Below, piece by piece: positions 20,763 to 28,868 of a stretch of 43,140 bases of DNA (within the stretch, counting starts at the first letter, position 1; the number at the start of each line of letters is the position of its first letter). The notes under the pieces were generated by a model. That model was not told the DNA's origin. It saw only the letters and a list, made by a program, of their open reading frames with translations, and made no database searches. This stretch comes from Methanothrix sp. (GTDB taxonomy: Archaea; Halobacteriota; Methanosarcinia; Methanotrichales; Methanotrichaceae): NCBI GenBank assembly GCA_030611205.1, contig JAUWQF010000002.1, positions 1 to 43,140 on the forward strand, read 5' to 3'. The position numbers and the translations under genes are program-made.

Positions 20763-20858
20763 GAGGCCGTCCTACAATTCCAGCAGAAAGTTTTCCATCT
20801 CACGGAGGATGGCGTCTTCGCGTGCCTCCTACTTTCTGACTCACGCGAAGACGCGAAG
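20763..20858. repeat. Block shared with 36926-37020
   Basis: About 95 bases are almost identical between the two places, and in both the block lies directly beyond a GxxExxY fragment's tail. On the minus strand it can read EDAILREMENFLLEL and a stop, possibly the end of a lost small gene. Confidence 0.75.
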
Positions 20859-21053
20859 TCCTGATGTTTGTTCACACCCCGTCTGATGCCTTCCTTGAAG
20901 GTCGCTGCACCGAAGTTGATAAGCAATCAGACAAGCAGGTTCAGGAGGCGCAAGGACAGCTTCATAGACCGATTCGAGTAATCCCGGCCCGAGATCCCGA
21001 TGAAGGTGGAAAGCCGTATCCACCACGACGGAAGAAACTTCTTCCACATTCAT
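20841..21053 (-). pseudogene. GxxExxY protein, internal deletion (fragment 2)
   Basis: The 35-residue N-terminus is intact (MNVEEVSSVVVDTAFHLHRD, then LGPGLLESVYEAVLA with the GxxExxY motif). The sequence then jumps out of frame to the last 30 residues (LLINFGAATFKEGIRR). The missing middle of about 60 residues includes the PD-(D/E)XK-like core. The joint falls on CTTGCGC, which occurs at both deletion borders in the complete arrangement. The family (Pfam PDDEXK_3) has no proven function. This copy is dead. Confidence 0.75.
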
Positions 21054-21097
21054 CGACGAGTCCCCACCCTTCGCGGCTTCGCGTGCCCCCTACTTTC

Positions 21098-21409
21098 TTA
21101 TTCACGCGAAGACGCGAAGTCCTGATGTTTGTTCACACCCCGTCTGATGCCTTCCTTGAAGGTCGCTGCACCGGAGTTGATAAGCAATCCGACAGACAGG
21201 TTCAGGATGCGCAAGTAGGTCAACAACTGCTTGGCATGGACGGGGGCAAGCCTCTCCACGGATATCAACTCGATCACCAGGCTGCCGTCCACCAACAAGT
21301 CCACGCGGAGTCCCTCGTCGAAATGCATGCCATTGAAGTCAAAGGCAACAGACACTTGACGTTCCACCCGCAACCCGCACTCTTCAAGCATACGCGCAAG
21401 GACAGCCTC
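21098..21409 (-). pseudogene. GxxExxY protein, C-terminal part (fragment 1)
   Basis: This has about 104 residues from EAVLARMLEECGLRVERQ to the C-terminus, including the nuclease-like core RVDLLVDGSLVIELISVE, HAKQLLTYLRI and the tail GIRRGVNKHQDFASSRE. The N-terminal 31 residues are missing because the sequence switches at about 21410 to the start of a ferritin gene. An in-frame ATG at 21391 could still start 97 residues. Confidence 0.75.
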
Positions 21410-21511: not shown

Positions 21512-21673
21512 TCAGATTTCCTCAAAATCTTCCTTTCCAGCGCCACAGTCGGGACAGTACCAGTCGTCGGGCAGATCCTCAAAAGACGTACCCGGCTCGA
21601 TACCGGAATCGGGGTCTCCCTTATCTGGATCGTAGACGTATCCACAGACGGTGCATTTGTACTTCTTCGTCAA
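21512..21673 (-). CDS. Rubredoxin
   Basis: The 53-residue protein has two CxxCG-type knuckles ([14 protein letters not shown] and [11 protein letters not shown]) that bind one iron, and the aromatic core YVYDP...W. It carries single electrons in the cytoplasm, for example to rubrerythrin. I start at the TTG at 21673 because GGAGGTGAGATA stands directly before it and the family begins at this point; the ATGs upstream give an unlikely leader. A truncated ferritin follows in the same unit. Confidence 0.93.
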
Positions 21674-21870
21674 TATCTCACCTCCTATTATCGTCCCATC
21701 ATCTAGTCTAAAACACAGTCCATTGAGGATCATCGCAAGGATCACGTCACTTATTCACAATATATTATAAAATCTGGCCACGATACCCAATGTCCTGGAT
21801 GTGTTGTAGCTACTTCCATGATTGTTGCTCTCTTCCAAATCATAGGATGGGGTGCTAATTAAAAAAGGTT

Positions 21871-22421: not shown

Positions 22422-24743
22422 TTGAGGATAATCGGTCATCCTGACCAAGAGGTCGAGACGAACCTGCGCGGCGCAGGCATCGGCCTCACGGTATCTGAGG
22501 CGCGTTCCATCGCAGATATTCTGGGGAGGGACCCCACCCTGCCGGAGCTCTTCAACTACGATACCATGTGGAGCGAGCACTGCTCCTACAAGAGCAGCCG
22601 GGCCACCCTCCAGGAGTTCCTGCATACCACCGGACCCAACGTCGTCCAGGGACCCGAAGAGGACGCGGGCATAGTGGCCATCGACGATACCTGGTGTGTG
22701 GTCATAGCCCACGAGAGCCACAACCACCCCAGCCAGATCTTGCCCAACGAGGGCGCGGCCACAGGCATCGGCGGTATCGTCAGAGACGTGAACTGCATGG
22801 GCGCCAAGGTGGTGGCCACCGCCGATCCGCTCCGCTTCGGCGACCCCAACGGCCCGGATGCCAACCACGTCCGCTGGGTGGCCGAAGGGGTGGTCGACGG
22901 GATCTGGCAGTACGGAAACGCTCTGGGCGTCCCGGTGATGGCCGGAGATGTGGTCTTCGACGATAGCTTCGATACCAACTGCCTGGTCAACGTGGTTGCC
23001 ATCGGTGTGGTTAAGAGAGACGAGATCATCAAGAGCAAGGCTCCTCCGGGAGCGGGCGAGAAGGGATACGACGTGATCCTCATCGGTAAGCCCACCGATT
23101 CCAGCGGCTTTGGTGGGGTGACCTTCGCCTCGGAGGCTCTGAGGGCGGAAGACGAGGACGCAAACCGAGGCGCCATCCAGATACCGGACCCCTTCCTGAA
23201 GAACGATCTCTTCAAGGCCAACCAGGACCTATTCGAGATGACCCGGTCGGAGGGGATCACCATCGGGTTCAAGGACCTGGGCGGTGGCGGGTTCACCTGC
23301 GCCTCCTCGGAGATGGGAGCCAGCGCAGGTTACGGCATGGACCTGGACCTGGACCTGGTCCACCGGGCCGGCGACCTGCCGCCGGAGGTGATCGGGTGTG
23401 CGGAGACCCAGGAACGTTTCCTCCTCATCTGTCCACCGGAGATGACGCCCAGGGCGCTGAAGATCTATAACGAGGACTGGGACCTGCCCAACGTCTACGA
23501 AAGCGCCAGGGCTTCGGTGGTGGGGAAGATGACCACCAACGGGCGGTACATCACCCGGCACAAAGGCAGGGAGACCTGCAATGTTCCCATCGAGCACCTC
23601 ACAGGCGGCATCAGGTATCAGCGAGAGGAAAAGCCGCGGAAGATGCACCATATGGAACCTGCAATCGAGGTTCCCCAGGACCTGAGCCAGGTCTTGCTCA
23701 GGGTACTGGCCTCGCCCAATACGTCGTCCAGGGAGCATGTTTACAGGTACTACGACACCGAGGTTCAGGGCAACTCGGTGATCCGGCCGGGAGAGGCCGA
23801 TGCAGGCCTGATCGCTCCTGTTCGGGGGGAACGTTTCGGGATCGCTCTTTCTGTTGACTCCAACCCCTTCTACGGCCGGATCAGCCCCTACTGGGCAGGA
23901 GCCACCGCCGTGGCCGAGGCCATGAGAAACGTGGCCTCGATAGGAGCCGTACCCTGGACCATGACCGACTGCCTCAACTTCGGCAACCCCGAGAAACCGG
24001 AAGCTTTCTGGGAGTTCAGAGAGGCTGTCAGGGGTCTCTCGGACGCCGCCAAGGCTCTCTGGCTGAAGGGTCACCAGGACGCTCCTGTGCCCATAGTTTC
24101 CGGCAACGTCAGCTTCTATAACGAGTCGCCCAAAGGAACCGTCGACCCCTCGCCCGTGATTGCCTGTGTCGGTCTCATCGATGATGTCGGGGACGCCGTG
24201 ACCATGAACCTCAAAGAGCCGGGGAACAATATATTCCTGATAGGGCCTCGGTTCGACGAGCTCGGCGGGTCCGACTATTACCGCACCGTCTGCGGGGCGA
24301 CGGGGGCCAACGTCCCCAAGGTGAGGTTCGATCAAGAGCGAAAGATGATCCACACCACCATCGACTCCATAGCCTGGGGGTTTGTGGTCTCCGCCCACGA
24401 CATATCCAACGGCGGTCTGGGGGCGACGGCCGCGGAGATGGCCCTGACCGGAAAGGCAGACCTGGGAATGGTGCTTGCTCTCGACCGGGCGGGCAGCTCA
24501 CGTCTCGGCACCGACCGGCTGATCTTCTCCGAGTCGTCCGGTTTCCTATTGGAGTGCCGGGCCGGGGCAGAGGAGGATCTGGCCGGACTGATGAAGGAGC
24601 GCGGCCTGGACCTGATGAGGCTGGGCGCTGTGAAGGATGCTCCTGAGCTGGTCATGACCCGCAAGGATAAGAAAGTGGTCTGCCTGGATCTGGAGGCGGC
24701 CAGGAAGGCCTGGACCGGGGGCCTGGTGGAGGCGATGAGATGA
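22422..24743 (+). CDS. purL: FGAM synthase subunit PurL
   Basis: This is the large subunit of phosphoribosylformylglycinamidine synthase, which converts FGAR to FGAM with ATP and ammonia from PurQ. The 773-residue protein is the small-type PurL that works with PurS and PurQ. Motifs seen include DTMWSEHCSYKSSR (about 46-59), SHNHPSQILPNEGAATGIGG, FKDLGGGGFTCASSEM and, in the second half, SAHDISNGGLGAT. The start is TTG at 22422, with AAGAGGTG ten bases upstream. Its stop overlaps the purQ start (ATGA). Confidence 0.96.
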   Translation: MRIIGHPDQEVETNLRGAGIGLTVSEARSIADILGRDPTLPELFNYDTMWSEHCSYKSSRATLQEFLHTTGPNVVQGPEEDAGIVAIDDTWCVVIAHESHNHPSQILPNEGAATGIGGIVRDVNCMGAKVVATADPLRFGDPNGPDANHVRWVAEGVVDGIWQYGNALGVPVMAGDVVFDDSFDTNCLVNVVAIGVVKRDEIIKSKAPPGAGEKGYDVILIGKPTDSSGFGGVTFASEALRAEDEDANRGAIQIPDPFLKNDLFKANQDLFEMTRSEGITIGFKDLGGGGFTCASSEMGASAGYGMDLDLDLVHRAGDLPPEVIGCAETQERFLLICPPEMTPRALKIYNEDWDLPNVYESARASVVGKMTTNGRYITRHKGRETCNVPIEHLTGGIRYQREEKPRKMHHMEPAIEVPQDLSQVLLRVLASPNTSSREHVYRYYDTEVQGNSVIRPGEADAGLIAPVRGERFGIALSVDSNPFYGRISPYWAGATAVAEAMRNVASIGAVPWTMTDCLNFGNPEKPEAFWEFREAVRGLSDAAKALWLKGHQDAPVPIVSGNVSFYNESPKGTVDPSPVIACVGLIDDVGDAVTMNLKEPGNNIFLIGPRFDELGGSDYYRTVCGATGANVPKVRFDQERKMIHTTIDSIAWGFVVSAHDISNGGLGATAAEMALTGKADLGMVLALDRAGSSRLGTDRLIFSESSGFLLECRAGAEEDLAGLMKERGLDLMRLGAVKDAPELVMTRKDKKVVCLDLEAARKAWTGGLVEAMR

Positions 24744-25537
24744 AGGTAGCGGTGATACAGTTCCCGGGGTCCAACTGCGAGCACGAGACCCTGGTGGCGG
24801 CCAGGAGCGCCGGTCTGGAGGGGGAGATCTTCAGATGGAACCGGCCGGCAGAAGAGCTATGCGACTTTGACGGCTACATGATCCCCGGCGGGTTCTCCTA
24901 CCAGGACCGGCTCAGGGCTGGAGCCATCGCCTCCAAGGAGCCGGTGATGGAGACCCTCAAAGAGGAGGCCGGTGAGGGCAAGCCTGTCCTGGGGATCTGC
25001 AACGGGTTCCAGATCCTGGTGGAGTCGGGGATGCTTCCCGGGCTGGACGGGGTAGACGCCGCCCTGGCCCAGAACGTGATGGTAACCAAAGGCGAGATAG
25101 TGCGGCGGGGGTTCTACTGCGCCTGGACCACCCTCAGGCACGACGCTGTCGCCGGGAGGTGCAGCGGCAGCTACCTCATCGAGAAGGGGTCTCTCATCGA
25201 TATGCCGATGGCCCACGCCGAGGGAAACCTGGTCACCGCCGACGAGAACCTGATCGAGAAGCTAAACGAGGAGAACCAGGTCGTCTTCAGGTACTGCGAC
25301 ACCGGGGGCGAGACGGGAAACGAGTTCCCCGTGAACGTCAACGGGAGCGTGGAGAACATAGCCGGCATTTGCAACCCCGAGGGTAACGTTCTGGGGATGA
25401 TGCCTCATCCTGAGAGGTCTTCTTTCGCCTGGCAGCTGCCCTTCGTCGATCCGGCAGCAAGGCGCCAGATCGATACACCTGGCCCAGGCAGGCTGATATT
25501 TGAGTCCATGAGACGCTACATCGAGGTGTCCAGATGA
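24740..25537 (+). CDS. purQ: FGAM synthase glutaminase subunit PurQ
   Basis: This is a class I glutamine amidotransferase supplying ammonia to PurL. The 265 residues include the oxyanion region IPGGFSYQDRLRAGAIA, the nucleophile in LGICNGFQIL and the His-Glu pair in MMPHPERSS. The start overlaps the purL stop by four bases, and its own stop overlaps the next start in the same way, so translation is probably coupled. Confidence 0.96.
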   Translation: MKVAVIQFPGSNCEHETLVAARSAGLEGEIFRWNRPAEELCDFDGYMIPGGFSYQDRLRAGAIASKEPVMETLKEEAGEGKPVLGICNGFQILVESGMLPGLDGVDAALAQNVMVTKGEIVRRGFYCAWTTLRHDAVAGRCSGSYLIEKGSLIDMPMAHAEGNLVTADENLIEKLNEENQVVFRYCDTGGETGNEFPVNVNGSVENIAGICNPEGNVLGMMPHPERSSFAWQLPFVDPAARRQIDTPGPGRLIFESMRRYIEVSR

Positions 25538-26007
25538 AGATAAACCTCCGGATCCGGCTCAAGATCCCGGATGCGGAAGCGGCGACCGTCAAGAACACCC
25601 TCGTCAGGAGGATGGGGTACGGCAAGGTGCTGACCGGCCTGGAGCGGGAACGGCTCTTTGTCCTGGAGGTCGATGACGCTGTCGAAGACCCCATGGACCT
25701 GGCCAGGAGGCTGGCCAGAGAACTGGTGAACGAGAACAAGGAGAGCTACCTGGCATCGGCAGAGGGCCTCGACTTCGAGAGGGGTTCGGTCCCGGTGAAG
25801 GTGGGGCTGCACATAGAGGATGGCGAGGCGGAGACTGTCCTTGACCGGCTCAGGAACCGTCTGGGGTTCTCGATGGTCAAGAAGGTGGAACGATCGGTCA
25901 TCTGGAAGCTCAAACTGGATTCCGATGATCCGGAGAAGCTGGCCAGAGAGATCGCAGAGGCCCTTTTGATCAACCCCCACAAGGACTTCTACGAGATCCT
26001 GAGATGA
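25534..26007 (+). CDS. purS: Tandem-duplicated PurS (PurS-PurS fusion)
   Basis: PurS is normally an about 80-residue protein that docks PurL to PurQ. This 157-residue protein contains the fold twice. Residues about 3-75 (INLRIRLKIPDAEAATVKNT to LVNENKESYL) and about 86-156 (VPVKVGLHIEDGEAETVLDR to LLINPHKDFYEIL) align through EA-TV, LxxRxGxxxV, ER, DP-LAR and the closing NxxKxxY. Position directly after purQ and the absence of any other purS here support the call. Usual PurS works as a dimer, so the fusion could be a one-chain dimer. It overlaps purQ and hef by ATGA at both ends. Confidence 0.8.
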   Translation: MKINLRIRLKIPDAEAATVKNTLVRRMGYGKVLTGLERERLFVLEVDDAVEDPMDLARRLARELVNENKESYLASAEGLDFERGSVPVKVGLHIEDGEAETVLDRLRNRLGFSMVKKVERSVIWKLKLDSDDPEKLAREIAEALLINPHKDFYEILR

Positions 26008-28295
26008 GCTACATAGAGCACCCCCTGATCAAGGAGGGGACGGTCGAGAAGCGTCTCTTCCAGCTGGACCTGGCGGTCAGCGCCCTTCAGGAGTCTACCC
26101 TGGTCGTCTTGCCTACGGGCCTGGGCAAGACCGTGGTGGCCTTGCTGGTCATACTGGTCCGTTTGGATAGGGGAAAAGTGCTCTTCATGGCACCTACCAG
26201 ACCCCTGGTGGAGCAGCACACCTCTTTTCTGAAGAACGTCCTGGTTGCGCCCTCCGTGGTGGTTCAGTTCACCGGCGAGACCCCACCCGAGCGGAGGAGG
26301 GAGATGTGGGACGAGGCCAGGATCATCGTCTCCACCCCCCAGGTGATCGAGAACGACCTTTTATCCAGGAGGATCAGCCTGAGGGATGTCTCCTGCGTGA
26401 TCTTCGACGAGGCTCACCGGGCGACGGGGAACTATGCCTACGTCTATATCGCCCAGAGGTACGAGAAAGAGGGGCGCGACGGACTCGTGCTGGGGATCAC
26501 CGCCAGTCCGGGGAGCAGCGCGGAAAAGATCGAGGAGATCTGTTCCAACCTGAGGATATCGAGGGTAGAGGCCAAAACAGATCAAGACCCCGACGTGGTG
26601 CCCTTCGTCCACCAGACGGAGGTCGAGGTGGTGAAGGTGACCGTGCCCAAAGAGATTCTCCAGCTGAGGAACCTCTTGGAAGATGTCCTGGAGCAGAGGG
26701 TCGAGGCTCTCTCCCGGCTGGATCCATCGGGCGGGACCACGAAACAGCTCCAGAGGGCTTCTAAGAAGGAGCTCTTGGATATGCAGAAGAGGTTGAGGAC
26801 CTCTATCGCCAGGGAGCCAACACCTTCGCTCTACCAGGCGGTCTCGGTGCTGGCGGAGGTGCTGAAGCTGAAGCATGCCGTAGAGCTGGCGGAGACCCAG
26901 GGCACGGAGTCTTTGGCCAAGTATCTGGAGCGGCTGGACATGGAGGCCAGGTCCCGGGGAGGGAGCAAGGCGGCCAAGCGCATCGCCGAGGACCCCCGGT
27001 TCCGGGAGGCGGTTTACACCCTGGAGCGACTGGACGTGGATCATCCCAAGCTGATGGCGGTCAAGGACCTGGTGGAAGAGCAGCTCAAAACCAAGGACGA
27101 CTCTTTGATCATGGTCTTTACCAACTACAGGGACACGGCGACCTCGGTTTTGGAGTTCTTGGAAGGTTCCGGGGAGGGTCAAGTCCGACCGGTGAGGTTC
27201 GTGGGTCAGGCCAGCCGGGCATCCGATGCGGGTCTGACCCAGAAGCAGCAGACGGAGATACTCCAGCAGTTCCGGGAGGGGACCTACAACGTGCTCATCG
27301 CCACCTCTGTCGGCGAAGAGGGGATAGACATCCCGGCAACAGACATGGTCCTGTTCTACGAGCCAGTGCCAAGCGAGATCAGGTCCATCCAGCGCAAGGG
27401 GAGGACGGGCAGGGCTCGCGCCGGGAGGGTGGTGGTCCTGGTGGCCCGCGGGACGAAGGACGAGGCTTACCGCTGGATCAGCGACCGGAAGGAGAAGGAC
27501 ATGCACAGGCAGATCCAGGACCTGGGCAGGTTTGAGATAGCGACGGCGGAGGCCAGGCAGACCCAGATCGGTTCTGTCGGGGTGGGGGAGAAGAAGGAGG
27601 AGGAGGTGGGTGCGGAGAGGGTGGAGGAGAAGAAGGAGAATGGGGGAGAGGAGGCCAGCGCCCTGGTCTACGTAGATTCCCGGGAGCGGACGATGGCCAA
27701 GCGTCTGGAGGCGCTGGGGATCGATATCGTCCTGGAGGTCCTGGAGGTGGGGGACTACGTGATCAGCGACCGGGTGGCAATCGAGCGGAAGACGGCGGCG
27801 GACTTCGTAGACTCTCTGGTCGGTGCGGACCGGGACCTCTTCCGGCAGGTGGGGGACCTGACCCGGACCTACGAGCGACCGCTTCTCATACTCGAGGGCC
27901 GGGATCTGTACGCCCGCCATGTCAATCCCAACCCCATCCGGGGCGCATTGGTCTCCCTAGCAGAGGACGTCGGCATATCGATACACCCCACGGAGGACGA
28001 GGAGGCGACGGCGTCGGTGAGCGCCTGGAGCGCCCGGAGAGAGCAGGAGGGGGCTGGCCGGGAGCCTTCGGTCCACGGACGGAAGACCGCCCGCACCCTT
28101 AAAGAGCAGCAGGAGGACCTGATCTCGTCGATACCGGGGGTGGGGGCGGTGGTGGCGCGGAACCTGCTCAAACACTTCGGGAGCGTGGAGAAGGTGGCAA
28201 CGGCGCCCCCGGAGGCTCTGCAAGAGGTGGAACTGGTGGGGCCGAAGACGGCGGAGCGTATACGGGAAGTTGTGGGCGGGGAATATAAGGGGTGA
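26004..28295 (+). CDS. hef: Hef helicase-nuclease (FANCM/XPF-like)
   Basis: The 763-residue protein acts on stalled forks and branched DNA. The N-terminal SF2 helicase shows Walker A PTGLGKT (37-43), DEAH (about 135-138) and motif VI QRKGRTGRA (about 462). A Glu/Lys-rich linker (about 525-550) leads to the XPF-type nuclease with VDSRERT (about 556) and the catalytic ERKTAADF (about 594), then a tandem helix-hairpin-helix (LISSIPGVG near 706, VGPKTAERI near the end). All catalytic residues are present. The gene is the last of the purLQS chain, overlapping purS by ATGA, an odd partner for purine genes. Confidence 0.95.
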   Translation: MSYIEHPLIKEGTVEKRLFQLDLAVSALQESTLVVLPTGLGKTVVALLVILVRLDRGKVLFMAPTRPLVEQHTSFLKNVLVAPSVVVQFTGETPPERRREMWDEARIIVSTPQVIENDLLSRRISLRDVSCVIFDEAHRATGNYAYVYIAQRYEKEGRDGLVLGITASPGSSAEKIEEICSNLRISRVEAKTDQDPDVVPFVHQTEVEVVKVTVPKEILQLRNLLEDVLEQRVEALSRLDPSGGTTKQLQRASKKELLDMQKRLRTSIAREPTPSLYQAVSVLAEVLKLKHAVELAETQGTESLAKYLERLDMEARSRGGSKAAKRIAEDPRFREAVYTLERLDVDHPKLMAVKDLVEEQLKTKDDSLIMVFTNYRDTATSVLEFLEGSGEGQVRPVRFVGQASRASDAGLTQKQQTEILQQFREGTYNVLIATSVGEEGIDIPATDMVLFYEPVPSEIRSIQRKGRTGRARAGRVVVLVARGTKDEAYRWISDRKEKDMHRQIQDLGRFEIATAEARQTQIGSVGVGEKKEEEVGAERVEEKKENGGEEASALVYVDSRERTMAKRLEALGIDIVLEVLEVGDYVISDRVAIERKTAADFVDSLVGADRDLFRQVGDLTRTYERPLLILEGRDLYARHVNPNPIRGALVSLAEDVGISIHPTEDEEATASVSAWSARREQEGAGREPSVHGRKTARTLKEQQEDLISSIPGVGAVVARNLLKHFGSVEKVATAPPEALQEVELVGPKTAERIREVVGGEYKG

Positions 28296-28634: not shown

Positions 28635-28868
28635 ATGCTGAACGTATTTTTGAGTTCTACTTTCAGAGACCTGGAAGGTGAGAGACGGCAAATTCTCGAT
28701 GACTTAGATAAAGCGCTTACCTCTGTGGGCATGGAGATCTTCGTTCCAGATGGAAGAGATCCTCACGATGTTAGTATAGATAATTTGAGAAATAGTGATG
28801 TCGTGATCTTTCTTATTTCTCCTTGGTATGGTACAACTATCGATGAATGTAAAATAAGGCCAGGCTAG
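28635..28868 (+). pseudogene. DUF4062 N-terminal domain, truncated
   Basis: The 77 residues read NVFLSSTFRDLEGERRQILD and DVVIFLISPWYGTTIDECKI, the start of the DUF4062 domain, a TIR/SIR-like Rossmann domain at the front of large, often defence-linked proteins. The frame stops at 28868. In the next frame, KARLVIEEMDTKQAKLFSQL and LGKFIAD (to 28942) may be another piece of the same gene. The region is AT-rich compared with neighbours, which suggests acquisition followed by decay. Confidence 0.65.

Follow-up and report, generated by a model that had tools for sequence, protein, structure and literature searches.

The window analysed here, a stretch of 43,140 nucleotides from a Methanothrix sp. 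genome, contains on its forward strand three consecutive genes of purine synthesis, purL, purQ and purSS in this order, the last of which encodes a protein composed of two PurS-like halves.

22422..24743, + strand: purL, small PurL of 773 aa with a TTG start as listed (TIGR01736, 704.5 bits)
24740..25537, + strand: purQ, glutaminase subunit of 265 aa (TIGR01737, 237.2 bits)
25534..26007, + strand: purSS, free-standing tandem PurS of 157 aa, ATG start and TGA stop (open reading frame listing, PF02700, AlphaFold2 model and family survey)
25534..25764, + strand: N half of purSS, residues 1-77, a derived PurS domain (PF02700 match below cut-off; hhalign against single PurS)
25783..26004, + strand: C half of purSS, residues 84-157, more PurS-like (PF02700 match above cut-off)

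According to the coordinates of the open reading frames, the successive genes overlap by 4 nt each, and the ATG of purSS falls inside the final codons of purQ. PurL and PurQ both score well above the NCBIfam cut-offs for small PurL and PurQ, and Pfam assigns to PurL a linker and AIRS domains and no PurS domain of its own. A PF02700 search of the source genome (a 95% complete draft in 181 contigs) gave no second match in addition to purSS. An earlier note on this DNA had described the gene at 25534-26007 as a PurS in the right operon position with no separate purS present, and it was correct in each checkable detail: purSS adjoins a small-form purL and purQ, and it is the only match of the PurS family in its genome. 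A Hef-like gene (26004-28295, + strand) with helicase, ERCC4 nuclease and HHH domains starts in the stop of purSS, with an overlap of 4 nt.

The whole 157-aa chain matches the Pfam PurS family in two stretches, with 43.1 bits for a cut-off of 22.2. Searched alone, the C half passes this cut-off (30.1 bits) and the N half stays under it (17.5 bits, E 0.0048). By profile-profile comparison the N half is nevertheless PurS-like, as hhalign aligned it with the single-PurS profile of the class at E 2.1e-5 (probability 77%) and with the C half at E 8.8e-15 (probability 98%), while ten column-shuffled N halves used as controls reached at most 0.55% and 0.83%, respectively. In these comparisons the two halves are closer to each other than to any single PurS. 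The chain also remains under the curated cut-offs of the NCBIfam PurS models (NF005019, 28.7 for 122; TIGR00302, 27.8 for 39; NF004630, 23.1 for 75), and is thus not filed as a single-domain PurS equivalog.

Sequence comparisons point to an asymmetric divergence, the C half being nearer to ordinary PurS and the N half more derived. The C half retains the NP motif of ordinary PurS where the N half has NE in the alignment, and their mean identities to single PurS are 0.23 and 0.19, respectively. The N half displays its own blocks, IPDAEA.TVKNTL.RR and LVNENKE, invariant or almost so in 40 relatives, and the conserved stretches of the C half are IEDGEA and LLINP.KD. The presence of distinct invariant blocks in each half means that neither of them is a relic. 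Mean identity within the 40 aligned rows is 0.71 for the N half and 0.68 for the C half, and the median dN/dS is 0.165 (199 pairs) and 0.193 (208 pairs), respectively, calculated only on pairs with a dS between 0.1 and 1.2 among the 780 possible per half. Both halves are under purifying selection. These values bear on the possibility that PurS function resides in the C half alone, which would still dimerise with its counterpart in a second chain and leave the N half as a spacer or regulatory domain. Although the C half is the only one to pass the PurS cut-off, and matches outside the Methanotrichaceae nearly always fall on it, we regard such an arrangement as improbable since the conservation of the N half equals or exceeds that of the C half, its dN/dS is low, and the two halves form a single PurS-dimer-like unit in the predicted structure presented below. 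Internal initiation yielding a separate C-half protein was also considered and rejected, since start codons are not conserved at the junction, where no codon position shows one in more than 17 of the 40 sequences.

The full two-domain protein was retrieved in 45 of the 50 Methanotrichaceae genomes surveyed, covering all 11 genera, which bears out the earlier description of a PurS fused to itself with two diverged halves per chain and extends it to the family. None of the five remaining genomes has a PurL match (0/5) or a true PurQ, the only candidate being one weak 37% match in G012, indicating that these assemblies lack the locus in its entirety. In a survey of the class (237 genomes), purSS was matched in 45 genomes and in none of the 187 outside the Methanotrichaceae. 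PF02700 was found in 207 of these 237 genomes at E<=0.01, and most of the matches listed outside the Methanotrichaceae are ordinary short PurS ORFs, the neighbouring family f6 having frames of ~975-1028 aa. At the level of the phylum (392 genomes, E<=0.1), 15 Methanotrichaceae members match end to end and the other 108 matching genomes nearly always do so over the C-half part only; no open frame spanning both halves was found among these 108 genomes from outside the Methanotrichaceae. Finally, a scan of genome_contigs with two short peptide patterns over 84,980 species' genomes, in which unrelated PurS-PurS fusions may escape, yielded 40 loci, 38 of them full-length, with titles referring to Methanothrix, Methanosaeta, Methanotrichaceae, Methanosarcinales or unclassified archaea. 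Methanosaeta sp. UBA204 is the nearest of these, at 96%. In all 38 full-length loci, purL then purQ lie directly upstream on the same strand, and hef is located within ~600 bp downstream of purSS in 10 of them.

The source genome being a draft in 181 contigs, the fusion might have been an assembly artefact or a local duplication in one genome. We give virtually no credit to this explanation, which is refuted by the presence of an identical two-domain frame in the 45 family genomes, including one- or two-contig assemblies (G011, G016, G047), as well as by the loci of the genome_contigs scan. A few irregular matches were met within the family. An apparent second purSS copy in CP086218.1 (L147; G014, 38 residues) abuts a run of N and is likely a scaffold artefact; there, at ~4899-5111 of L147, a second purSS end followed by hef comes after the N run, in a record titled chromosome. 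The fragment of G018 sits at a contig end (L148), and G033 has a weak second match covering residues 36-115 in a 1190-aa frame.

In an AlphaFold2 model computed with 40 family sequences (pLDDT 94.8, pTM 0.88), the strands and helices of the N half follow the same order as those of the C half. All of the model's top 19 structural matches in the PDB are human PFAS or Salmonella PurL, one-chain FGAM synthetases of the large type found in animals and many bacteria, whose N-terminal 142-156 residues align to residues 1-156 of the model (Z 10.6-13.8, rmsd 2.8-3.2, 138-147 residues aligned). Single PurS structures come next with Z 5.8-6.6 over ~75 residues, and unrelated folds remain at Z 3.9 or less. 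Foldseek agreed with this ranking, giving only large PurL among its hits at E<=0.001 (18 hits). The predicted structure thus has the two-domain arrangement in space of the large PurL N-domain. The earlier note had proposed that the fusion would fix the PurS dimer, and the model favours this reading as it superposes confidently and in one piece on this N-domain, which corresponds to two PurS units according to PMC3815217. The link with large PurL comes from structure alone, being undetectable by sequence: PF18076 (FGAR-AT_N) gave no row for the purSS protein at E up to 10, and a profile search against PDB sequences had 2yx5 as its only credible match.

Ordinary PurS (PF02700; 2yx5, 1gtd, 1vq3, 1twj, 2cuw, 2zw2, 3d54_B) resembles it by the fold of each half, the Pfam match and the operon with purL and purQ, but consists of one ~80-aa domain acting as a homodimer, whereas purSS has two diverged domains per chain. 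The N-domain of large PurL/PFAS (1t3t, 9nb3) likewise contains two similarly arranged PurS-like halves (Z up to 13.8, 147 residues), but belongs to the same polypeptide as the synthetase and the glutaminase, whereas purSS is a separate protein with 12-14% identity to it and no match to PF18076. A third comparison is offered by medium PurL (mdPurL), described as having ~200 extra N-terminal residues (PMC3261824), and by the PurL of family f6. Among seven loci fetched from f6 (L089-L095), PurL reaches ~975-1028 aa and two PurS-like N-terminal repeats are seen in the translations; Pfam, applied to two of these proteins, found two PurS stretches in the first, a single one in the second and no glutaminase domain in either. 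mdPurL and f6 PurL share with purSS the two PurS-like repeats, but these are fused before PurL and are not close to the purSS halves.

These resemblances raise the possibility of a gene fission, in which the chain would derive from a large or medium PurL by separation of its N-terminal domain, with no fresh duplication of PurS. Such an origin would agree with the large PurL N-domain being the top structural match, in one piece, and with the occurrence of PurS-PurS-PurL fusions in a neighbouring family. We consider it unlikely, however, given the sequence relationships of the halves. Against profiles of the two f6 PurL-fused repeats (M1 and M2, built from six of the seven loci), hhalign gave probabilities of 0.3% for N-M1, 0.6% for N-M2, 4% for C-M1 and 33% for C-M2, compared with 98% for N-C. 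A tree built from 61 domain sequences groups the N and C halves in a single clade (100/99) that excludes single and PurL-fused PurS. The lack of PF18076 match and the position of purSS, after purQ and not before purL, also argue against fission. Within the same tree each half forms one clade (93/76 and 98/91), which suggests that the duplication predates the split of the Methanotrichaceae, although this tree is based on 79 columns with long branches and AU tests leave alternative groupings of the halves unrejected (p 0.126-0.244). Archaeal large PurL is not represented in the tree because PF18076 matched only one of the 392 genomes of the phylum, below its cut-off. A tandem duplication within the Methanotrichaceae lineage is therefore the origin favoured, although not proven, by the sequence data, and purSS is probably convergent with two other forms, the N-domain of one-chain FGAM synthetase and the f6 PurS-PurS-PurL fusion.

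We consider it highly probable that purSS encodes a covalent PurS pseudo-dimer constituting the PurS component of a three-protein FGAM synthetase and resulting from a tandem duplication in the stem lineage. The PurS component of the formylglycinamidine synthetase (PurL + PurQ + PurS) would consist in these archaea of one two-domain chain, derived from a PurS gene duplicated in tandem in the stem of the Methanotrichaceae, separately from the duplications of large and medium PurL. Its two PurS domains are predicted to associate with each other as the two subunits of the ordinary homodimer do, forming a pseudo-dimer. By analogy with known PurS and large PurL, this pseudo-dimer would connect PurQ, the glutaminase, with PurL, the synthetase, allowing ammonia made by PurQ to reach PurL. 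The fusion would shift the stoichiometry from 2 PurS : 1 PurL : 1 PurQ to 1:1:1 and free the two positions to diverge. The further drift of the N half, together with the constraint maintained on both halves, makes it probable that the two halves have distinct contact surfaces. PMC3815217 reports that the whole N-domain of large PurL contacts both partners, with 1033 and 1919 square angstrom buried; by analogy, a clean split of the PurL and PurQ contacts between the two halves, as put forward in the earlier note, may be possible.

The fused chain might alternatively homodimerise into a four-domain PurS assembly, and the physiologically relevant form of PurS is indeed presented as disputed in PMC3261824. 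This assembly seems rather doubtful to us, since the 3d54 structure has two PurS per PurL (six PurS and three PurL chains, 2:1) and one two-domain unit suffices in large PurL. Returning to the covalent pseudo-dimer, a more extended interpretation is that purSS represents a re-invention, as a free protein, of the N-domain of large PurL, by a lineage-specific duplication and fusion independent of large and medium PurL and with the two halves acting as asymmetric partners for PurL and PurQ; our own judgement on this interpretation is evenly divided.

The correspondence between two PurS units and the N-terminal region of large PurL was exploited in PMC3815217, where an artificial concatenated "PurSS" was built for alignment and the function of the large PurL N-domain is said to be "not clearly understood". 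A natural PurSS, present in at least 45 genomes, can now be set beside this artificial concatenation. A search of the literature found no PurS-PurS fusion protein in titles and abstract openings; PMC3261824, which surveyed Methanosaeta thermophila, may hold a prior notice of it in a figure, where a symbol for "domain duplication" appears, probably referring to double-length PurE. The latter, reported in some methanogens in the same article, is also a self-fused archaeal protein of purine synthesis with a diverged second copy, but is a different enzyme. The existence of a natural covalent PurS pair argues for the dimer as the working unit, and the fusion makes it possible to mutate one half without the other, something a homodimer does not permit. 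If the proposed scenario is true, purSS would provide a living example of a step of the type "duplicate first, fuse to PurL later" toward the one-chain enzyme.

Two further features of the window lie on either side of the operon and Hef-like gene.

21512-21745, - strand: rubredoxin gene
28635-28868, + strand: short ORF matching DUF4062 (PF13271) over positions 2-67 of 82

The DUF4062 ORF is possibly a truncated gene. Upstream of purL, a 143-nt direct repeat, 94% identical between its two copies (20812-20954 and 21073-21215), is located in broken minus-strand ORFs whose match to PDDEXK_3 (PF13366) is split in two; they are read as a partly duplicated and disrupted PD-(D/E)XK gene.
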